Program-made: the position numbers and the translations under genes | Shown here: positions 45,827 to 63,480 of the stretch, one piece after another | Position numbering within the stretch: position 1 is the first letter of the stretch | Layout: each line of letters begins with the position of its first letter | The notes under the pieces: generated by a model | What the model saw: only the letters and a program-made list of their open reading frames with translations | What the model was told of the DNA's origin: nothing | The model's database searches: none | NCBI RefSeq assembly: GCF_013141825.1 | Contig: NZ_RZNH01000013.1 | Location: 48,106-112,105, forward strand | Direction: 5' to 3' | Origin: Marinifilum caeruleilacunae | GTDB taxonomy: Bacteria > Bacteroidota > Bacteroidia > Bacteroidales > Marinifilaceae | DNA length: 64,000 bases

Positions 45827-45907
45827 TTTTACACAAGCTTTATTTAGTACCTTCAATTTTTGAAAAAATGGTGTGAGCCTAAATCAATAAAACTTAAGCA
45901 ATTTTCC

Positions 45908-47164
45908 ATGAACATATTTAAATTTGGTGGCGCTTCGGTGAACAGTGCCGAAGGGGTCAAAAATTTTGTAAAGATTGTTCAATCTTATAAGGATGAAACC
46001 ATAATTGTGCTTTCTGCAATGGGCAAAACAACCAATGCACTGGAAGAGATTACGGATCAGTTTTGTGCTAAATCCGATTTGGTGGAAACTAAATTTCAAG
46101 AGGTAAAATCCTTTCACTTAAATATCATAAACGAACTTTTTACCAATAAAGAAGATGCAGTTTATGAAAAGGTAAATCGATTATTCGATCAGTTGCATGC
46201 CTATTTGCAAAGAGAGCCAACTTTAGATTACGATTTTGATTATGATCAGATTGTTTGCTTTGGGGAATTGGTGTCTACAACAATTGTTTCAGAATATCTG
46301 CGCTTAAGCGGATCTCCAAATAAATGGATCGATATCAGAACCTGTTTAAAAACAGATAATACTTATCGTGAAGGAAAAGTGGATTGGGAACTCTCACAAA
46401 AACTGGTACCACAAGCCTTTAGTTTCGACAGTACATTTGTATATGTCACCCAAGGATTTTTGGGAGGTACAACAACCAATCAATCTACCACTTTAGGGCG
46501 TGAAGGATCGGATTATACCGCTGCAATTTTATCTTATATTCTCGATGTAGATAAATTAAGCATTTGGAAAGATGTTCCTGGAATTATGAATGCTGATCCG
46601 AAATGGTTGGAAGACGCCGAGAAATTGGATCGGATTTCTTATCAGGAAGCCATTGAGCTTGCATTTTACGGTGCAAAGGTGATTCACCCAAAAACCATTC
46701 AACCAATTAAACGAAAGAAGATTCCTTTGCAGGTAAGATCATTTATTGACTATAGCGAATCAGGCACTTTGATCAGTACAGCTTCAAAACAGATGGAGAA
46801 GCAGTTGCCGGTTTATATTCGAAAACAAAACCAGGTGTTGATCTCCATTCGTCCAAGCGATTTTTCATTCATTCTGGAGGAAAATTTAAGTTCGCTATTT
46901 GCCCTTTTTGCAAAGCATCGCATGAAGGTAAATTTAACCCAAAATTCAGCAATTAGTTTTTCGGTTTGTGTGGATAAATCGGAAAGAAGATTGAAGAATT
47001 TACTGGATGAAATTTCCCAGGATTTCGAAGTAAAATACAATGATGATGTGGAGTTGATTACAATTCGTCATCATGATGATGATGCGGTTGAGCGCATGAC
47101 TGCAGGCAGAGATATTTTATTGGAACAACGAAGCAGAGATACAGCGCAATTTGTGATTATTTGA
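45908..47164 (+). CDS. lysC: Monofunctional aspartate kinase, stand-alone copy
   Basis: 418 residues from the ATG at 45908 (MNIFKFGGASVNSAEGV); the frame is open 16 codons upstream but that part is not family-like. Phosphorylates aspartate, the first step to lysine, threonine and methionine. Kinase domain motifs: KFGGASV, DFDYDQIVCFGELVS, LGREGSDYTAAIL, WKDVPGIMNADPKW and YGAKVIHPKTI. An ACT-type regulatory region follows (about 305-418), so feedback inhibition is likely. It has its own terminator and lies outside the SAM-riboswitch operon, which carries a second aspartate kinase. This copy may supply the lysine/threonine branch. Confidence 0.92.
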   Translation: MNIFKFGGASVNSAEGVKNFVKIVQSYKDETIIVLSAMGKTTNALEEITDQFCAKSDLVETKFQEVKSFHLNIINELFTNKEDAVYEKVNRLFDQLHAYLQREPTLDYDFDYDQIVCFGELVSTTIVSEYLRLSGSPNKWIDIRTCLKTDNTYREGKVDWELSQKLVPQAFSFDSTFVYVTQGFLGGTTTNQSTTLGREGSDYTAAILSYILDVDKLSIWKDVPGIMNADPKWLEDAEKLDRISYQEAIELAFYGAKVIHPKTIQPIKRKKIPLQVRSFIDYSESGTLISTASKQMEKQLPVYIRKQNQVLISIRPSDFSFILEENLSSLFALFAKHRMKVNLTQNSAISFSVCVDKSERRLKNLLDEISQDFEVKYNDDVELITIRHHDDDAVERMTAGRDILLEQRSRDTAQFVII

Positions 47165-47200
47165 GATTCATTTTTGTCAAAGCGTGCATAAAATAATTTG

Positions 47201-47238
47201 AAAAAACACAAAGTCAAAAAACTGGCTTTGTGTTTTTT
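47201..47238 (+). terminator. Intrinsic terminator of the first aspartate kinase
   Basis: A 13-bp perfect stem (47201-47213 with 47226-47238) whose 3' arm ends in TTTTTT. Located 37 bases past the stop; it isolates this gene from the methionine operon. Confidence 0.85.
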
Positions 47239-47411
47239 GTTTTTCATTATAAGGTTCTCATTTTTTCATGATAAACCAGTTGTACGAATCACTTTTGTAA
47301 GATTCCGATTTATTTTTTCAAAAAAAAATATGCTCCAAAATCACTTTTGTATATATAAGGTATAGTTTGCACATTATCAACGAATAAAATTTAAGACTGC
47401 TGCATCTTTTA

Positions 47412-47442
47412 TTTGGAGATTAAAAAATCATGCCTATATTTG
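47412..47442 (+). promoter_or_regulatory. Promoter of the methionine operon
   Basis: TTTG (47412-47415), exactly 19 nt, TATATTTG (47435-47442). Both boxes match the Bacteroidota -33/-7 consensus perfectly. Transcription should start near 47448, about 33 nt before the SAM riboswitch. Confidence 0.8.
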
Positions 47443-47480: not shown

Positions 47481-47596
47481 TTAATTTATACAGAAGAAGT
47501 GAGAGAACAGGCTCGATGACCTTCTGACAACCCCGGCAAAACCAAAAGCTGAAAGGTGTCAAATCCTGACCATTTAATTTGGTGAATATAAATTAA
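47481..47596 (+). promoter_or_regulatory. SAM-I (S-box) riboswitch
   Basis: All parts of the aptamer can be placed. P1: 47481-47490 with 47587-47596 (10 perfect pairs). P2: 47492-47496 with 47521-47525, enclosing the conserved GAGAGAACAGGCTCGATGAC kink-turn and pseudoknot region. P3: GAC-a-ACC (47526-47532) with GGTGTC (47555-47560), followed by the conserved AAATCC. P4: 47569-47572 with 47580-47583. It binds S-adenosylmethionine and turns off methionine synthesis genes when SAM is plentiful, which fits the six met-pathway genes downstream. No U-tract terminator follows, so SAM probably acts on translation of the leader ORF that starts 7 bases after P1. Confidence 0.92.
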
Positions 47597-47602
47597 AAGA
47601 TC

Positions 47603-47722
47603 ATGAAGAAGACAGAAATTCACAATTTAAAGCAGGCTCAACCAGAGCAAAACATTCAGTTGCAATCTTTGGCATCTATTACCACTATGATGCGAATGCA
47701 GCGAATGATGCGTATGCTGTAA
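47603..47722 (+). CDS. Methionine-rich leader peptide (39 residues)
   Basis: An ATG 6 bases after the SAM aptamer opens a 39-codon ORF. The first 28 residues contain no Met after the initiator. The last 11 read M-M-R-M-Q-R-M-M-R-M-L, six Met codons (ATG) plus three Arg codons before the TAA. Such clustering just before a stop is the hallmark of attenuation leader peptides that sense the matching charged tRNA. The position between a SAM riboswitch and metY makes a Met-tRNA sensor likely. A hairpin overlaps the last Met codons and the stop. It is too short for default ORF callers. Alternative: a ribosome-arrest or functional Met-rich micropeptide. Confidence 0.7.
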   Translation: MKKTEIHNLKQAQPEQNIQLQSLASITTMMRMQRMMRML

Positions 47723-49376
<1,654 letters not shown>

Positions 49377-49499: not shown

Positions 49500-50534
49500 G
49501 TGAATCCAAATTGTTACATCCATAAAGAAGGTCTTCAGCTTGAATCGGGCGAACGTCTGCAAGAGTTGACTATCGCTTATCACACCTATGGGGAGTACGA
49601 TCCATCGCGCAATAATGTGATTTGGGTTTGTCATGCTCTCACTGCCAATTCTGATGTTTTCGATTGGTGGGCAGGACTTTTTGGAGAGAAGGACTTTTTT
49701 AATCCTAAGGATTATTTTATCGTTTGTGCCAATTTTCTTGGCTCGTGTTACGGTACCACAGGACCTCTTTCCCAAAATCCGGAAAACGGACAAGCTTATT
49801 ACCACGATTTTCCGCAATTGACAGTACGCGACTTGGTGGCAGCACACGAAATTTTAAGAAAACATTTAAATATTCATCGCATTCATATGATGATTGGTAG
49901 CTCACTGGGAGGCATGCAAGCCTTGGAGTGGGCTTACTTGTTGAATGGAAAGTTGGATCATTTGGTGGTGTTGGCTTCCAATGCCAAGCATTCACCCTGG
50001 GGAATTGCATTCAACGAATCGCAAAGAATGTCGATCGAGGTTGATCCAAGCTGGAAAGAATCGAATGATGAAGCAGGTTTGGAAGGTATGATAGTGGCAA
50101 GGTCTATCGCGCTTTTAAGCTATAGGACCTATGCAACTTACGACCATTCGCAGCAAGAGAATGAAAAAGACAAGGTGGATGATTATCGCGCAAGCTCTTA
50201 TCAAAGATACCAGGGGGAAAAATTAGCCCGACGATTTAATGCCTATTCATACTGGCACTTGTCAAAAATCATGGACAGTCACGATATGGGTAGAAAGAGG
50301 GGAGGATTAATTTCTGCTCTGAATGAAATTAAATCAAGAACACTTGTTATTGGAGTGGATTCAGATCAGATTTTCCCAATAAACGAACAAAAATTCATAG
50401 CGGATCATATTCCGCAAGCTCAATATCTGGAAATTCATTCGCTTTATGGACACGATGGATTTCTCCTAGAACAAGAACAATTAACTAAAGTACTACAATC
50501 ATTTTTAATCGAAAACAAAATCAATGAGCAATAA
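49500..50534 (+). CDS. metX: Homoserine O-acetyltransferase MetX
   Basis: 344 residues from a GTG at 49500. Alpha/beta hydrolase that acetylates homoserine with acetyl-CoA, giving the substrate of MetY. Nucleophile elbow GSSLGGMQALEWAY (Ser about 140), LTANSDVFDWWAGLFG, NFLGSCYGTTGP, and the late acid and histidine in GVDSDQIFP and YGHDGFLLE complete a Ser-Asp-His triad. The N-terminal reading (NPNCYIHKEGLQLESGERL) matches the family, which supports the GTG start. It overlaps hom by 11 bases. The short loop between the lid helices is the usual MetX form; acetyl versus succinyl specificity was not tested. Confidence 0.93.
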   Translation: MNPNCYIHKEGLQLESGERLQELTIAYHTYGEYDPSRNNVIWVCHALTANSDVFDWWAGLFGEKDFFNPKDYFIVCANFLGSCYGTTGPLSQNPENGQAYYHDFPQLTVRDLVAAHEILRKHLNIHRIHMMIGSSLGGMQALEWAYLLNGKLDHLVVLASNAKHSPWGIAFNESQRMSIEVDPSWKESNDEAGLEGMIVARSIALLSYRTYATYDHSQQENEKDKVDDYRASSYQRYQGEKLARRFNAYSYWHLSKIMDSHDMGRKRGGLISALNEIKSRTLVIGVDSDQIFPINEQKFIADHIPQAQYLEIHSLYGHDGFLLEQEQLTKVLQSFLIENKINEQ

Positions 50535-51714
50535 ACTTAAAATAGGTGTATTCGGATACGGAGTTGTTGGTTCCGGATTGGCCCACGTTCTGAAAAATAG
50601 CAAAGGCTTGGATGCCTCTATTGTAAAGGTATGTGTAAGAGATGGTGAAAAGGAGAGAGAGTTAGATTCAGCAGTTTTAACCACAAAGCCTGATGATATT
50701 TTAAGCGATCCTGAAATTAATGTTGTTGCTGAATTGATTGATGATGCAGATGCAGCTTACCAGATTGTAAAAACTGCACTTCAAAATGGGAAACATGTGG
50801 TTTCGGCCAATAAAAAAATGTTGGCCTACCATATCGAGGAGCTCATTCAATTGCAATGGCAGCACAAAGTGTCATTTGTATATGAAGCTTCGGCTTGTGG
50901 AAGTATTCCAATCATCAGAAATTTGGAAGAATACTACGATAATGACTTGTTACAATCGGTGAGCGGTATATTGAATGGTTCGTCGAATTACATTCTTACC
51001 AAGATTTTTAACGACAATTTAGATTACGATGTAGCCTTAAAACAGGCGCAGGATCTAGGATTTGCAGAGAGCGACCCGACATCTGATGTTGATGGTTTCG
51101 ACACATTGTACAAGTTGATTATTCTTACGGTTCACGGATTCGGATTATTTGTCCATCCCGACCAGGTATTCAACTTTGGGATTTCAAATCTATCGCCGAA
51201 AGATATCGAGCTGGCATCGCAAAAAGGATATAAAATCAGATTGCTTGGAAAAGTGACAAAGGTAAATGGAAATCATGTGAACCTTTTGGTTGCGCCAAAA
51301 TTTGTGAAGCCCGAAGAGCACGCTTTTACTGTCGAAAGTCATTACAATGGTGTACTGATACAGGGAAATTTCTACGATAACCAGTTCATGTATGGAAAAG
51401 GAGCGGGAGCTCACCCAACGGGTTCTGCCGTATTGTCGGATATCACAGCATTGGCCTACGATTACAAGTATGAGTACAAAAAATTGAAATACTATGGTGG
51501 TTTGCAATACACCAACGATATGGAGGTGGAAGTTTACCTGAGATACACAAATAAAGACGATTTGGCTCTCTTTAATTTTTCAGATATCAAGGAATCTCTA
51601 ACAGGGAAAGATTTCAATTATGTAATTGGGACATTGAACCTTTCGGATTTGATAAAAATTCGCCAGCAAATTCAAGGAAGAGATGTTTTCCTTGCCTACC
51701 TGGGAGATGAATAA
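50524..51714 (+). CDS. hom: Homoserine dehydrogenase
   Basis: 396 residues. NAD(P)H-dependent reduction of aspartate semialdehyde to homoserine. Rossmann start KIGVFGYGVVGSGLAHVL, SANKKMLAYH (catalytic Lys region), EASACGSIPIIRNLEEYY, GILNGSSNYILTKI and ESDPTSDVDGFD, in which the acidic and lysine (LYKLIIL) residues of the active site lie. There is no C-terminal ACT domain of the threonine-inhibited type; the last 60 residues are short and unlike ACT. Together with the riboswitch this suggests control by SAM rather than by threonine. Overlaps metX by 11 bases, 36 bases before lysC. Confidence 0.92.
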   Translation: MSNKLKIGVFGYGVVGSGLAHVLKNSKGLDASIVKVCVRDGEKERELDSAVLTTKPDDILSDPEINVVAELIDDADAAYQIVKTALQNGKHVVSANKKMLAYHIEELIQLQWQHKVSFVYEASACGSIPIIRNLEEYYDNDLLQSVSGILNGSSNYILTKIFNDNLDYDVALKQAQDLGFAESDPTSDVDGFDTLYKLIILTVHGFGLFVHPDQVFNFGISNLSPKDIELASQKGYKIRLLGKVTKVNGNHVNLLVAPKFVKPEEHAFTVESHYNGVLIQGNFYDNQFMYGKGAGAHPTGSAVLSDITALAYDYKYEYKKLKYYGGLQYTNDMEVEVYLRYTNKDDLALFNFSDIKESLTGKDFNYVIGTLNLSDLIKIRQQIQGRDVFLAYLGDE

Positions 51715-51750: not shown

Positions 51751-53010
51751 ATGATAATATACAAATTCGGTGGCGTATCGGTGAAAGATGCGGCTGCCAT
51801 ACGAAACATCTGCCAGATTATAGCTAAGGTGAAGCGACCCCTTACTGTGGTAATTTCAGCAATAGGTTCAACCACAAACCTGCTGGAAGAACTGGTAGAT
51901 GCATATTTTTCGGGAAAGGATAGCTTATGGAATCACTTCGAGACACTGAAACGAAACCACATTTCAGTGCTCAACGATTTATTCGAAGAAGTGCCTGAGC
52001 ATGTTGCCTCGGAAGTAAACGCTCTTTTCGTCGAGCTGGAAACCAAAATTTCAAAACCATCATCTGATCAGTTCAACTTCGAATACGATCAGGTGATTGG
52101 TTTTGGCGAGTTGCTTTCAACCACAATGATTTCGGCATATCTAAATCAAACAGGTCAGAAAAATCAATGGATTGATATCAGAACCTGCCTTGATTCGGAT
52201 GACAATTATGTAGATGCCAACATCAACTGGGAAACGTCGAAAGAGAAAGTGAATGCAAAATTTGTTGATGATTCGCAGGCTTTGTATATCACCCAAGGAT
52301 TTATTGCCCGCGACGATAAAGGTTTTACAACTTCGCTGGGACGAGAAGGATCGGATTATACTGCGGCCATTTTGGCTCATTTGCTTGGCGCTGATAAAAT
52401 GATCATTTGGAAAGATGTGCTGGGCATCTTAAATGCCGATCCCGATTATTTCGAAACCACAACCAAACTGGATTTGATTCCCTATCACGAAGCCATCGAG
52501 CTATCGTATTATGGGGCAAGGGTAATTCATCCAAAAACCATAAAGCCCTTGCAGGCAAAACAGATTCCTCTTTGGGTAAAATCTTTTATCGATCCGGCCC
52601 AAAAAGGAACATTAATTACAAAGGGAGAACAACCGCAACCTATGTTGCCAAACTATATTGTGAAGAAAAAACAGGTGATGGTGAATTTGAAACCCTTAAA
52701 TTTTTCATTTATAGGTGAAAAAGATCTGGTTTTTATCTTTTCACTCGTGACAAAGTTTAGAATTAAGCTTAATTTTACTCAAAACACCGCTGTTAGTTTT
52801 GCATTTTGTGCCAACAGTTCGGCCCGAAATATCAAGGAACTAATTGATGAGCTGAGTAAAAAATATGAAGTAGACCTGAGCGATGATCTGGAATTGATTA
52901 CAGTTCGACACTATACGCCAGCTACCATTGAAGAAATTCAAAACAAACATCATGTGCTGGTGGAACAGAAGAATACCAATACTGCAATCTACCTGACCGT
53001 GGCAAATTAA
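51751..53010 (+). CDS. lysC: Monofunctional aspartate kinase, methionine-operon copy
   Basis: 419 residues, similar throughout to the stand-alone copy at 45908 (shared WIDIRTCL, LGREGSDYTAAIL, WKDV-G-I-NADP, YGA-VIHPKTI). Motif KFGGVSVKDAA replaces the other copy's KFGGASVNSAE. The ACT-like C-terminus (about 300-419) is present but diverged (VMVNLKPLNFSFIG). Placement in the SAM-controlled operon means that supply of aspartyl phosphate for methionine can be tuned apart from the lysine/threonine route. The pair arose by duplication and both look catalytically complete. Confidence 0.92.
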   Translation: MIIYKFGGVSVKDAAAIRNICQIIAKVKRPLTVVISAIGSTTNLLEELVDAYFSGKDSLWNHFETLKRNHISVLNDLFEEVPEHVASEVNALFVELETKISKPSSDQFNFEYDQVIGFGELLSTTMISAYLNQTGQKNQWIDIRTCLDSDDNYVDANINWETSKEKVNAKFVDDSQALYITQGFIARDDKGFTTSLGREGSDYTAAILAHLLGADKMIIWKDVLGILNADPDYFETTTKLDLIPYHEAIELSYYGARVIHPKTIKPLQAKQIPLWVKSFIDPAQKGTLITKGEQPQPMLPNYIVKKKQVMVNLKPLNFSFIGEKDLVFIFSLVTKFRIKLNFTQNTAVSFAFCANSSARNIKELIDELSKKYEVDLSDDLELITVRHYTPATIEEIQNKHHVLVEQKNTNTAIYLTVAN

Positions 53011-53057: not shown

Positions 53058-56000
53058 ATGGAGCAAAAGTTTACAATTAAAGAAGCATTACAAAATCAGA
53101 TTTTGGTTCTCGATGGAGCTATGGGAACCATGATTCAATCGCACGGATTGGGCGAATCGGATTTTAGAGGCAAACGTTTTGCCAATATTTCCGCCGATCA
53201 GAAAGGGCACAACGATTTGTTAACGCTTACCCAGCCTGATATTATAAAGAACATTCACCTGGAATTTTTAAAAGCAGGTGCACATATCATCGAAACCAAT
53301 ACTTTTAATGCAAATGCAATTTCATTGATTGATTATCAATTGGAAGAACTTGCTTATGAGTTGAATGTTGAAGCGGTGAAAAATGCTCGCAGAGCTATTG
53401 ATGAAATACAAAAAACCGATCCTCATACCCCAAGATGGATTGCCGGAGCCATTGGTCCAACCAATAAAACAACATCGATGTCGCCTAAAGTGGAAGACCC
53501 AGGTTTCAGAGATGTGAGTTTCGACGATTTGGTAGAAATTTATTCCGAACAGGTGAGAGGTTTGCTGGATGGTGGAGTGGATGCATTACTGATTGAGACA
53601 ATTTTCGATACCCTAAATGCAAAGGCAGCTGTTTATGCGGCCGATCAGCTTTTGGAAGAGAGAGGTTTGGATTTGCCAATCATGATTTCGGGGACCATTA
53701 CCGATAATAGTGGAAGAACTTTATCGGGTCAGACGCTGGAAGCCTTTGTAACATCGATGAAGTGCGACAGGTTGTTGAGTATTGGACTGAATTGTGCCTT
53801 TGGGGCAAAAGATTTGATTCCATTTATTCAACAGTTGGATACATTATTGCCGGCATACGTAAGTGTATATCCGAATGCAGGTTTACCAAACGAATTGGGC
53901 GAATACGATGAAACACCTGGCACAATGGTGGGTGACCTGAAGGAATTGCTCGATAACAAAAAGGTTAATATTGTAGGAGGATGTTGTGGAACAAGACCCG
54001 ATCATATTGCTGCAATAGCAAAGGCTGTAAAAGATGCTAAGCCAAGAGAAATACCTTTCGTAGAAAGCGAAACCCGCTTAAGCGGATTGGAGATGTTGCG
54101 AATCAATTCACTCAGCAACTTTGTAAATATTGGTGAGAGAACCAATGTTGCCGGGTCTCGAAAATTTGCAAGATTAATTCGCGAGGAAAAATACGAGGAA
54201 GCATTGTCAATTGCCCGATCGCAAGTTGAAAATGGTGCTCAAATTATCGATGTGAACATGGATGATGCCATGTTGGATGCCGAAAAAGAAATGGATGTAT
54301 TCCTGAAGCTTTTGGTTTCGGAACCAGAAATTTCCCGCGTTCCTGTTATGATCGACTCTTCGAAATGGTCTGTTTTGGAAGCTGGTTTAAAATGTGTGCA
54401 AGGAAAATCGGTGGTAAATTCCATATCATTGAAAGAGGGTGAAGAAGAATTTATTAAAACTGCTACCCAAATTAAGAGATATGGAGCCGCTGCAGTTGTA
54501 ATGGCTTTCGATGAAAAAGGTCAGGCCGATACTTACGAAAGAAGAATTGAAATTTGTGGAAGAGCCTATAAAATTTTAACAGAAAAAGTAGGTTTTCCAC
54601 CAGAAGACATCATCTTCGACCCAAATGTACTGGCAATCGCTACCGGAATAGAGGAACACAATAATTATGCGGTCGATTTTATTAAAACCGTAAAATGGAT
54701 CAAAGCAAATCTTCCGCATGCAAAAATTAGTGGGGGAATCAGTAATCTCTCTTTTTCGTTCCGTGGAAACAATGTTGTACGGGAAGCAATGCACTCGGTA
54801 TTCTTATACCATGCCATAAAAGAAGGATTGGATATGGGAATTGTAAATCCGGGAATGTTGCAGATTTATGATGAAATTGAGCCTGAACTCTTAGAAAAGG
54901 TAGAAGATGTAGTGCTGAACAGAAAGCCCGATGCTACCGAGATTTTAATAGAATTCGCTGAAGGATTGAAATCGGCTGGAACAAGCCAGGTGAAAACAGA
55001 TTTGTGGAGAGAAAAATCGGTGAATGAGAGGTTGTCGTACTCGCTGGTGAAAGGAATTACCGACTATATAGAAGAGGATGCAGAAGAAGCACGTCAGAAC
55101 TATCCGAAGGCATTGGAGGTAATCGAAAAACCATTAATGGATGGCATGAATGTAGTAGGAGAGCTGTTTGGAGATGGAAAAATGTTCCTTCCCCAGGTGG
55201 TGAAATCTGCAAGGGTGATGAAAAAAGCTGTTGCTTATCTTCAACCATTTATCGAAGAAGAAAAAGGCAATGCGGCCGATGCTAAAAATGCTGGAAAAAT
55301 ATTAATGGCAACCGTAAAAGGTGATGTTCACGATATCGGGAAAAATATTGTGGATGTAGTTTTGGGTTGTAATAATTTCGAGGTAATCGATTTGGGTGTA
55401 ATGGTTCCATGCTCAAAGGTTCTGGAAGTGGCCAAACAAGAAAAGGTTGATGCCATTGGTTTGAGCGGATTAATTACCCCATCGCTTGAAGAAATGTGCT
55501 TTGTTGCCGAAGAAATGCAACGAGAAGGATTCGATATTCCTTTGGTGGTGGGAGGAGCCACAACATCAGAATTGCATACAGCAGTGAAGATTGAACCCAA
55601 CTATAAGAATGGCGTGGTGCACGTGAGCGATGCTTCTCAGTCGGTAGGGATTTTCAAGAAACTTTGCGACAAAAGCAAGCGCAGCGAATATTTGGCGGGT
55701 GTGAAAGAGCAGTATCAGCAGGTAAGAGCGGATCATTCTAAGCAGAAATCGGCAGAATATTACTCTTTGGAGGAAGCCAGGGCAAATGCAGAAGCAATTG
55801 ATTGGGAAAAATCGCCAATTTACAAGCCAAAGAAAACAGGATTGCAGGTACAGAAAAATTTCTCCATCAAAGAAATCAGAAAATATATCGATTGGACCTT
55901 CTTTTTTGTGGCCTGGGAGTTGAAATGCATGTATCCTGAAATTATGGAAGATCCGGATTACAAGGATGAGGCCAAAAAACTTTTCGACGACGCCAATAAA

Positions 56001-56726
56001 ATGCTGGACAAGATCGAGAAAGAGAATCTTCTGGAAGCAAGTGCTGTGTATGGATTGTTCCCGGCAAATGCTGTGGGCGACGATATTGTGATCTATTCCG
56101 ATGAAGAGAGAAGTTCTGAGCTAAAGCGATTCACTCAAATTCGCCAGCAGGAAAAATTCTCGAAAGGATTAAGCAATTTGTGTTTGAGCGATTTTGTGGC
56201 TCCAATTGAGTCGGGTAGAATCGATTATGTAGGTGCATTTGTTGTGACAGCAGGTCTTGGAATTGAAGCAAGTTTGCAAAAATATACCGAGAATAACGAT
56301 GATTACAACAGTATCATGATAAAAATTTTGGCAGACAGATTGGCTGAAGCTTATACTGAATTGTTACACGAGCAAATCCGTAAAGAAGATTGGGCCTATG
56401 CCAATGGTGAAAACCTGAGCATTGAAGAAATGTTACGCGAAAAGTACCAGGGAATTCGTCCGGCTTTTGGTTATCCATCATTGCCCGAACATTCCGAAAA
56501 AAAGGTACTTTGGGATTTCTTGCAGGTTGAGGAAAGTATTGGAGCAACATTAACCGAAAATTATGCCATGTATCCGGCAGCTTCGGTAAGCGGATTGGTG
56601 CTATCACATCCCGATGCCATTTATTTTTCTATCGATAAAATCAAGGATGATCAGGTACAAGATTATGCCAAGCGAAAAGGAATATCGGAGAATGAAGCCA
56701 GTAAATTACTAACGGCTATTATATAG
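53058..56726 (+). CDS. metH: Cobalamin-dependent methionine synthase MetH
   Basis: 1222 residues, full length. Transfers a methyl group from 5-methyl-THF via cobalamin to homocysteine. Domains: homocysteine-binding (about 1-325, zinc cysteines in GLNCAFG and VGGCCGTRP), pterin-binding (about 340-620, with [11 protein letters not shown]), cobalamin cap (about 630-740), B12-binding (about 740-880, D756-V-H758-D-I-G with H758 as the lower axial ligand), and the SAM-binding reactivation domain (about 890-1220, [15 protein letters not shown]). The cell must have or import B12. Starts 47 bases after lysC. Confidence 0.97.
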
Positions 56727-56792: not shown

Positions 56793-57752
56793 ATGAAAGT
56801 AATCGAACATTTAAACCAGGCAATCGAGAATAAAACCACACATTTCTCTTTTGAACTTTTACCTCCTTTAAGGGGTAATAGTATATATAAGGTATTCAAC
56901 ACCATTGAAAAACTTCGCGATTTCGATCCGAAGTATATTAATATTACCGCTCACCGCGATGAGGTTGTCTTTGTAGAATCGCCCAATGGAGGATTCGAAA
57001 AAAAGATTACCCGTAAGCGTCCGGGAACGGTTGCTGTGGCGGCTGCCATTCAAAATAAATACAAACTTACAGTTGTTCCGCATGTAATCTGTAGCGGATT
57101 TACACCCGAAGAAACAGAAAATGCTCTTTTAGATTTAAATTTCCTGGGAATTCATGATCTCTTGTTGTTGAAAGGTGATTCCTCACCGCGCCACGATTTT
57201 ATTCCATCCGAAGGAGAACACAAATATGCCATCGACCTGATTGGACAGGTGAATGATATTAACAAAGGAACCTTTTTGGACGGAACCCATGTGGAGCCTT
57301 TTGAAACTCCCTTTTCCTTTGGAACTGCCGGATATCCTGAGAAACACGAAGAAGCTCCAAATATGGAGTCGGATTTGTACTGGCTAAAGAAAAAGGTGGA
57401 TGCAGGAGCAGATTATATCGTAACGCAAATGTTTTTCGACAACCAGAAATTCTTCGAATTCGAGAAAAAAGTTCGCGAAGCTGGCATTACAGTTCCTATT
57501 GTTCCTGGAATTAAACCAATTTCTGCTTTGTCTCAACTTAATGTGCTTCCGCAGATATTTAAAACAGAAATTCCCGAAGCCCTGGCAGCGGAAGTGCGTA
57601 AATGCAAAAGCAATGATGAGGTGAAACAAGTTGGAGTAGAGTGGGGAATAGAGCAAAGCAAAGAGCTGATTCAACACGGTGTACCGTCACTGCATTTCTA
57701 CACTCTTATGGCATCCAATTGTGTGAGAGATATTGCAAAGGCAATATATTAA
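56793..57752 (+). CDS. metF: Methylenetetrahydrofolate reductase MetF
   Basis: 319 residues. FAD-dependent reduction of 5,10-methylene-THF to 5-methyl-THF, the methyl donor for the MetH encoded directly upstream. TIM-barrel features: THFSFELLPPLRG (catalytic Glu), NITAHRDEV, TVVPHVICSGFTPEE, DLLLLKGDSS and KVDAGADYIVTQMFFDNQKF. C-terminal PSLHFYTLMAS is typical. Last gene of the operon, with a strong terminator 20 bases later. The 66-base gap after metH contains no promoter match that I can see. Confidence 0.95.
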   Translation: MKVIEHLNQAIENKTTHFSFELLPPLRGNSIYKVFNTIEKLRDFDPKYINITAHRDEVVFVESPNGGFEKKITRKRPGTVAVAAAIQNKYKLTVVPHVICSGFTPEETENALLDLNFLGIHDLLLLKGDSSPRHDFIPSEGEHKYAIDLIGQVNDINKGTFLDGTHVEPFETPFSFGTAGYPEKHEEAPNMESDLYWLKKKVDAGADYIVTQMFFDNQKFFEFEKKVREAGITVPIVPGIKPISALSQLNVLPQIFKTEIPEALAAEVRKCKSNDEVKQVGVEWGIEQSKELIQHGVPSLHFYTLMASNCVRDIAKAIY

Positions 57753-63167: not shown

Positions 63168-63480
63168 CTTCAGAGAATTAATGTGTAAAACAATTTAATT
63201 AGCACGAAGATAGTATATCTCTAATAAAACCGTCATTTCCATTCGTTAAAAAGAGTGAAAACCCACGATTAATTTTGGCGGCCCCCTTCGGGTCGGGCTA
63301 TCCGCTATATCTTTTTTCTCATACTTCGAAAAAAAGGATGCCGCTCCTATCCCTGCCGCAATATTTCCATTGCCGTTTTGTAAAAATGAGCGAATACAGC
63401 TTCTAAAAGAACAAAAAACACATTCGCCGAAACTTTTTCTAAATTTTTTCCATCGGGATATCAGAGTGTTAGGCATACGG
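63168..63480. other. Gene-free region with a Bacteroidota-type intergenic element
   Basis: No credible ORF; minus-strand open frames here (for example 63246-63476) lack any protein-like features. The stretch 63274-63360 contains CCCCTTCGGG, CGGGCTATCCGCTATATC (63293-63311), a TCTTTTTT/AAAAAAGGA arm pair and GGATGCCGCTCCTATCCC (63336-63353). I have the impression that this composite is a recurrent intergenic sequence in Bacteroidota genomes, but I cannot confirm it. Its role is unknown. Confidence 0.45.

Follow-up and report, generated by a model that had tools for sequence, protein, structure and literature searches.

A SAM-I riboswitch directly before a methionine-codon leader peptide: a putative two-input regulator of methionine synthesis genes in Bacteroidia

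The methionine operon metY-metX-hom-lysC-metH-metF of Marinifilum caeruleilacunae is preceded by a SAM-I riboswitch, and directly behind the aptamer there begins a short open reading frame that ends in a cluster of Met codons. The question raised by this locus is whether the two elements act together on the operon, and if so how. The stretch of DNA analysed, here called the window, is 64,000 nucleotides of contig NZ_RZNH01000013.1 (assembly GCF_013141825.1, positions 48,106 to 112,105 of the forward strand). A preliminary description had proposed a two-input gate, in which SAM would control translation of the leader, and the leader, by stalling when Met-tRNA is uncharged, would control the operon. 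We think it quite probable that this is a composite regulator, in which the output of the SAM-I aptamer would be translation of the leader and the Met/Cys codons of the leader would report charged tRNA and gate the operon. The sequence itself gives the aptamer, the ORF and its position, the codon bias, the conservation and the alternative folds, and it is these that lead us to that reading.

With regard to the aptamer, the match to Rfam RF00162 (SAM-I) is full length, at 70.8 bits against a gathering threshold of 44.4 (E 1.6e-14), with the conserved core and the P1-P4 fold present, and the earlier view that this is a clear SAM-I aptamer is borne out. It is the sole SAM-I found in the 5.27 Mb assembly (202 contigs), and its P1 consists of eight A-U pairs and no other pairs. 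About 40 nt 5' of it is a candidate promoter of Bacteroidota type; 117 of 234 loci have the pattern TTG-N17..23-TAnnTTTG in the upstream 160 nt, and 2 of 234 have it when the sequences are reversed. The leader begins 8 bases after P1 (47594 to the ATG at 47603) and not six as first described, but the ORF is otherwise as reported, with 39 codons and six Met among the final 11; its translation is MKKTEIHNLKQAQPEQNIQLQSLASITTMMRMQRMMRML, followed by the stop. The stop lies 334 nt before metY, and the six operon genes, which had been named correctly, are those found by NCBIfam models, so that genes of Met/SAM metabolism stand directly 3' of the aptamer and leader. The window has two Rfam matches at gathering threshold, neither of them to a T-box family, and there is no second known aptamer in the leader, where SAM is the sole Rfam family at that threshold. 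The features are listed in the table.

Table. Features of the leader region and operon, in window coordinates
Feature	Position	Strand	Basis
Candidate Bacteroidota-type promoter	47412-47442: TTTG 47412-47415, 19 nt, TATATTTG 47435-47442	+	sequence
SAM-I (S-box) aptamer with A/U-only P1	47483-47594; P1 5' arm 47483-47490, 3' arm 47587-47594	+	Rfam
Spacer from P1 3' arm to leader ATG, 8 nt, putative ribosome loading place	47595-47602	+	sequence; similar spacing in relatives
Leader peptide ORF, 39 codons	47603-47722	+	ORF translation; same-place Met/Cys-tailed ORF in relatives
Control tail MMRMQRMMRML, six Met in final 11 codons	47687-47719	+	translation, tail enrichment, codon table
Region 1, GATGCG, inside Met codons, predicted to pair with region 2	47689-47694	+	fold of 47680-47775
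Hairpin H1 (2:3), region 2 (47722-47728) with region 3, GGTGCGT (47762-47768)	47722-47768	+	23-sequence family alignment, folds
Covarying structured region, outer helix and three hairpins	47780-47955	+	shuffles, covariance model
metY, O-acetylhomoserine sulfhydrylase, first operon gene	48057-49376	+	TIGR01326, 650 bits
metX, homoserine O-acetyltransferase	49500-50534	+	TIGR01392, 349 bits, under model's cut-off
hom, homoserine dehydrogenase	50524-51714	+	NF004976, above cut-off
lysC, aspartate kinase	51751-53010	+	TIGR00657, above cut-off
metH, cobalamin-dependent methionine synthase	53058-56726	+	TIGR02082 / NF007024, above cut-off
metF, methylenetetrahydrofolate reductase	56793-57752	+	TIGR00676, above cut-off

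The ending of the leader is unusual: the six frames of the window have 590 ORFs that start with ATG and are 14-60 aa long, and it alone has 5 Met/Cys among the final 10 codons. For comparison of tails with bodies we used 111 non-redundant leaders that were picked without regard to the tail. Met occupies 182/1110 tail positions and 44/2585 body positions (9.6-fold, p 3e-59) and Cys 213/1110 and 74/2585 (6.7-fold, p 2e-58); Arg is enriched 2.8-fold, and for the other 17 amino acids p is below 0.05 for Trp only (9 vs 5, p 0.008). At least three Met/Cys are present in the final ten codons of 73 of the 111, and where there are runs of three or more Cys codons, TGT and TGC are mixed in 26 of 31. On this codon composition the Met/Cys tails are taken to be under selection at the level of codons.

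The rest of the leader is different in this respect. Length differs by whole codons among relatives while start codon, frame and stop persist, and an alignment of 24 leaders has one invariant column, the start Met, and one nearly so, with a mean column identity of 24%. In the window's clade the body is variable at codon positions 1, 2 and 3 in 23, 25 and 25 of 29 codons, and as the three positions vary equally the body has no coding signature of its own; the corresponding figures for the tail are 5, 5 and 9 of 11 codons. RNA pairing also constrains some tails, as we conclude from two observations: the Arg codons are CGN in 113/124 cases in tails and 63/103 in bodies, and the aligned loci of HcyBio type have the tail ATGCGCTGCATGCGCTRA with at most one changed base in 17 of 18. 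The 18th (L103) has kept the GCGC stem but lost the Cys and Met codons between.

The comparison that the preliminary description had itself named as a possible refutation was whether the ORF and its Met enrichment are present at the same place in related genomes, and both recur in the family, the order and the class. We counted as a leader any short ORF with its ATG 0-20 nt 3' of the aptamer and with Met or Cys at three or more of its final ten codons. The set for the family, Marinifilaceae, has 48 SAM-I matches in 43 of 57 genomes, or 47 loci when a 28-bit match that is not SAM-I (L048) is left out, and 43 of the 47 have the leader, with tails that include MMRMQRMMRML, MSMRMRCMR, MDMRCMR and MLCMRMCMC. 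The proposal of a Met-tRNA sensor is supported and is to be widened from Met to Met and Cys: the tails are conserved, with Met and/or Cys, in those 43 loci, and since many relatives have Cys codons instead of or beside Met, the sensor would read sulfur amino acids and not Met alone.

Beyond the family the leader goes with one type of P1. We sorted the loci by the 5' arm of P1 as TTATA, canonical CTTAT or neither, using an order set of 82 loci and a class set of 75 drawn evenly over the class. The leader is present in 22 of 56 TTATA loci in the order set and in 5 of 11 in the class set, at least three of the latter 11 (L328, L329, L332) being CTTATA hybrids, and in 3/14 and 2/10 respectively of those of neither type. 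It is present in none of the canonical loci of the order (0/12), the class (0/54) or the phylum set (0/29, from the best-scoring 30 loci, of which 29 are canonical), which makes 0/95 over the sets with the phylum represented by those best-scoring 30. Of 392 genomes sampled over the phylum, 312 have a SAM-I. Named genomes were also scanned with a pattern in which only the 5' half of the aptamer is fixed, and among the matches listed the leader is present in 40/76 and 18/37 TTATA loci. Over all sets the figure is 128 of 227 TTATA loci (for the pattern set, among the matches listed); on the same basis 99 of the 227 fall short, or 85 if GTG and TTG starts are allowed. Several of the Hymenobacter misses in the pattern set do start with GTG, and with these starts allowed that set gives 49/76 and 22/37 among the matches listed, and the canonical loci 1/95. 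When the sequences of the non-canonical sets are shuffled with dinucleotides and start codon preserved, 0.6-1.0% satisfy the definition. In the whole class draw only 7 of 75 SAM-I loci have the leader, and the genera with such leaders, among the matches listed, include Sphingobacterium, Pedobacter, Mucilaginibacter, Hymenobacter, Pontibacter, Chryseolinea, Psychroflexus and Ancylomarina.

These counts leave out L165, which is at a contig end, L168, which lies on the contig of L012, three order places already in the set, four class rows (two below cut-off, a duplicate, and one from the window's own genome) and loci whose downstream sequence is shorter than 220 nt, of which the pattern set had 2 and 2. 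L009 and L008, from two genera, have 310 identical nt over aptamer, leader and H1 with differing flanks, and because of this shared stretch are not independent; it is either a swapped module or an assembly artefact. Two second SAM-I copies (L033 and L047) have no ATG leader directly 3' of the aptamer, and have ORFs with Cys/Met runs (NNCCCCMYIP and MMCCICCMCCCMR) about 150 and 340 nt downstream, which are possibly displaced or tandem leaders.

In the case of the SAM side, the distance from aptamer to start codon is informative. The leader ATG is a median of 10 nt 3' of the aptamer in 73 leaders (IQR 8-12), and the first ATG is 7-14 nt 3' in 143 of 198 non-canonical, mostly TTATA, aptamers. At nine non-canonical loci an ORF of enzyme length starts at the leader's spacing, and in seven of these (L059, L070, L074, L076, L089, L099 and L166) it is metH, metY or metX, as read from the first residues, that starts 7-15 nt after the aptamer. 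In the order and class sets a strong hairpin followed by a U-run lies within 130 nt in 47 of 66 canonical loci, against 3 of 67 TTATA loci. The SAM-I loci of order and class have two main platforms, a CTTAT arm with terminator and a TTATA arm with start codon, and a smaller group is of neither type. The enzyme starts at the same spacing and the lack of a nearby terminator lead us to think that the TTATA subtype probably acts at translation initiation, with the leader probably occupying the place of the gated ORF. Sequestration of the ribosome binding site within P1 is described, in the relevant part of PMC2258182, for SAM-I in general. Spacing, enzyme starts and terminator counts all favour the earlier suggestion that SAM gates translation of the leader, which on this anatomy we infer to be so.

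The genes that follow are those one would expect of a sensor for sulfur amino acids: in 99 of the 111 leaders the first gene best matches a gene of the methionine, homocysteine or aspartate pathway (metY 53, metX 12, metH 12, lysC 9, metF 1, and the HcyBio homocysteine gene 12, assigned by Pfam PF01837 for L002). The remaining 12 comprise five with no gene found and seven before other genes, among them two SusC-type receptors, an NhaC-like antiporter and the dimethylsulfone monooxygenase sfnG. Cys-rich leaders behind SAM-I and before non-methionine genes were seen at L162, L216, L227, L080, L185 and L210, the genes there being SusC/TonB receptors, sfnG, a PBP-like protein, PhyH and a pyridine nucleotide-disulphide reductase.

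The leader also occurs without the riboswitch. Seven of 20 metY loci scanned are without SAM-I; three of these (L368, L376 and L378), for which no start was located, were left out of the reading of leaders, and a lax search for SAM-I in the other four (L360, L369, L370 and L375) found none. L360, L369 and L370 have a Met/Cys leader before metY and L375 has none, in a 600-nt upstream search that has an appreciable chance rate for weak matches; in L369 and L370 an intrinsic terminator is directly 3' of the leader. As far as can be read from these loci, the Met/Cys leader is a separate module that occurs apart from SAM-I. The genome under study also has, on contig 43 (L356), a His leader, MKFIALHHRHHHFTYQQVS, before hisG, with an intrinsic terminator, AATGCCCGCCTGATTCAGGTGGGCATTTTTTTT, between, and this pair makes it likely that leader-peptide attenuation is in use there. 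The Met leader has one trait of such attenuators, being a short ORF with the cognate codons near its end that is conserved in relatives.

Attenuators work by alternative pairings at the leader stop, and here region 2, which overlaps the stop codon, is predicted to pair either with region 1 or with region 3. In folds of 47680-47775 the 1:2 state has -23.1 and the 2:3 state (H1) -20.1 kcal/mol; the two are mutually exclusive, the 1:2 state can form first during RNA synthesis, and H1 is conserved in the 23 family sequences aligned. When a ribosome is represented by masking, H1 is the best fold with the mask over codons 31-36, which include the Met codons 32, 35 and 36; a mask over Met codons 29 and 30 gives the 1:2 fold, and one from codon 37 (with Met codon 38) to the stop gives neither. 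In a longer segment (-60..+70), H1 is formed even with no ribosome masked in. A wider test of the 1:2 and 2:3 pairings gave weak mean z values of -0.32 and -0.17, with one valid control, the other two of three being void as their window ran past short leaders.

From these folds the following sequence of events can be proposed. At high SAM the bound aptamer would have its A/U P1 stabilised, and with the 3' arm closed 8 nt before the leader ATG ribosomes could not load, so that the leader would stay in the 1:2 state and the operon would be off. At low SAM the leader would be translated. With Met-tRNA plentiful the ribosome would reach the stop codon and cover region 2, so that H1 could not form, while with charged Met-tRNA scarce it would wait on the Met codons, and a ribosome waiting from codon 31 onward would cover region 1 and leave region 2 free for region 3, forming H1 and turning the operon on. 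The gate would then be approximately low SAM AND low charged Met/Cys-tRNA. We infer from the layout and folds that the leader is translated, that ribosomes stall on it, what the sign of H1 is, and that there is a last step onto the operon. A difficulty is that Met does not make a convenient signal, charged initiator Met-tRNA being required for initiation as well. On the whole, the two-input gate of the preliminary description is supported by the comparisons made. That such gates are class-wide in Bacteroidia, A/U-P1 SAM-I having lost its terminator platform, come to gate translation and been set before Met/Cys leaders in many lineages, with Met and Cys versions swapped and SAM deciding in an AND gate if the tRNA sensor is read, we also favour, a little less firmly than the composite regulator itself.

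With regard to the last step, no terminator-like site lies between leader and metY in the window. A lax hairpin-plus-U site within 330 nt after the stop is present in only 13 of 110 leaders; pairing of region 2 with the lax site goes beyond background only in L233 of 12 tested; and hairpins of -12 or better are found in 11 of 68 leaders and 16 of 340 shuffles, which is some excess, most of it unconvincing. On these scans, that of the order and class sets given above and that of the window, an intrinsic terminator as general output was rejected, and among the SAM-I leaders only the terminator of L233, from Psychroflexus, is convincing. There a 9-mer, CAGTAGGCT, is present both across the leader stop codon (region 2) and as the terminator 3' arm (region 4), with its complement between the copies, and the 2:3 and 3:4 states have -16.0 and -16.6 kcal/mol. 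In masked folds 3:4 was kept at 13 of 13 ribosome positions and 2:3 never formed, so that antitermination there would need folding during transcription. The last step looks like an intrinsic terminator in L233, while in the window it may be an effect of Rho or on translation.

The region 47780-47955, between H1 and metY, is also structured, with a covariation score reached by none of 500 shuffles, the structure being the window's own fold. A covariance model of it has a single match in each of 23 of the 57 family genomes, which belong to six of 17 genera, 18 of the 23 matching sequences being those from which the model was built; in a search of 50 loci five near relatives matched strongly and seven rows weakly (E 0.005-0.7). 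As it matches no Rfam family at gathering threshold in the window and has matches in six of the 17 family genera, we rejected it as a second aptamer; it may belong to the platform or act as some other sensor.

Other explanations of the locus differ mainly in what they make of the tail. The most serious, which we nevertheless think improbable, is that SAM alone is sensed, the leader being passive, its SAM-set translation merely shielding the transcript from Rho or RNases and its Met/Cys codons sensing nothing. SAM-gated translation is consistent with the spacing and with the lack of a nearby terminator, and the window has no intrinsic terminator. Moreover, 61 of 73 leaders have more C than G in the first 30 nt beyond the stop (C below G in 8), as a Rho loading site might show. 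However this bias is not specific, for it is found as well in the 30 nt before main gene starts (54/63; C below G in 5), and a Rho loading site after the stop was rejected for that reason; the bias is less strong in short ORFs with fewer than two Met/Cys (14/22; C below G in 3). A switch of this kind also leaves unexplained the confinement of Met/Cys enrichment to the last ten or so codons and the Met/Cys leaders that have no SAM-I.

It is also conceivable, and in our judgement distinctly less likely, that the peptide itself has a function, either as a small Met/Cys-rich product or, while still nascent, as a sensor of copper, oxidants or SAM. Metal might be bound by ends such as CCCCCC or MMRMQRMMRML, and the gene behind some Cys-type leaders is one for a SusC/TonB receptor, sfnG or a PBP gene, but it is the composition of the tail alone that is conserved, at the low column identity given above, and methionine, homocysteine or aspartate pathway genes come first after nearly all of the leaders. 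We put only slightly lower the chance that an RNA hairpin is the conserved element, the Met, Arg and Cys codons being a by-product of GCGC/GCAUGC stems: the nearly constant HcyBio-type tails, the GCGC stem kept in L103 and the preference for CGN among the enriched Arg codons would fit, but poly-Cys runs that mix TGT and TGC do not fit a single conserved stem, and start codon, frame and stop are kept while length shifts by whole codons. That the Met cluster arose by chance in a non-coding leader of this genome alone can practically be dismissed; clusters do arise by chance at a low rate, the leader being the one such among the window's short ORFs, but relatives from across the class have such a cluster at this same position, and that refutes it.

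Both halves of the proposed regulator, SAM-I and the leader peptide, are known, and as the preliminary description had supposed, their coupling, or indeed any metabolite aptamer controlling an amino-acid leader peptide, was not found described in the open-licence literature. SAM-I riboswitches in which P1 sequesters the start region have the same aptamer (RF00162), but here the gated ORF would be a short leader peptide with sensing codons and not an enzyme. Attenuators of the his/trp type likewise have a short ORF, cognate codons near its end and a cognate operon, and their alternative pairings at the stop may have a counterpart in the folds predicted here, whereas in the present case a metabolite aptamer would control ribosome loading, the residue putatively sensed is Met and there is no intrinsic terminator in the window. 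The poly-cysteine uORF attenuators of mycobacteria have Cys codons in leaders of sulfur or Cys-tRNA genes, the Salmonella mgtCBR and mgtA leaders sense ions, and the ubiG-mccBA operon of Clostridium acetobutylicum has a Cys T-box. The cysS uORFC-8-2 motif of Rhodobacterales, in the part of PMC8632094 that treats it, again has Cys codons in the leader of sulfur/Cys-tRNA genes; neither this motif nor the mycobacterial uORFs have a SAM aptamer in front, and they are from other phyla. The mgtCBR and mgtA 5' leaders, as the pertinent section of PMC3641672 describes them, have two short ORFs controlling transcription, but no small-molecule aptamer gates a cognate-amino-acid leader. In the C. acetobutylicum sulfur operon SAM sensing is combined with Cys-tRNA sensing for sulfur metabolism, as we propose here, but the T-box reads tRNA, SAM-I acts on antisense RNA (an excerpt of PMC2258182) and there is no leader peptide. 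Sinorhizobium meliloti metA also has a SAM riboswitch before an early AUG1, with a terminator behind, but the riboswitch is SAM-II, AUG1 and AUG2 are in frame with metA starting at AUG2, and no Met-codon tail is described in the portion of PMC9373788 concerned. For Bacteroides and Flavobacterium, leader-peptide-like sORFs or attenuation are mentioned in PMC7366714 and PMC9723704, which in their available text name no SAM or methionine cases, and the available text of PMC11109978 and PMC3766115 does not describe coupling of a SAM aptamer to a leader peptide.

If our reading is correct, this is a compact natural logic gate that combines, within a single transcript, the end-product cofactor and the supply of charged tRNA, and the action of many Bacteroidia SAM-I riboswitches that have no nearby terminator would be explained by it. 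Here and in many relatives it is probable that a single mRNA senses the cofactor as well as how much of the sulfur amino acids is available, ahead of synthesis of the methionine enzymes, and this locus and its relatives would be a place where Met-codon leaders occur. The reading predicts ribosome density in these 5' UTRs, and a Met/Cys response that is lost after recoding of a few codons.

Three further observations concern the surroundings. A second aspartate kinase gene, at 45860-47164, ends just 5' of the SAM-I leader, and 3' of that gene a hairpin with a U-run can be seen by eye at about 47200-47245. Rfam also places a Flavo-1 RNA on the minus strand at 63287-63361 (58.3 bits).
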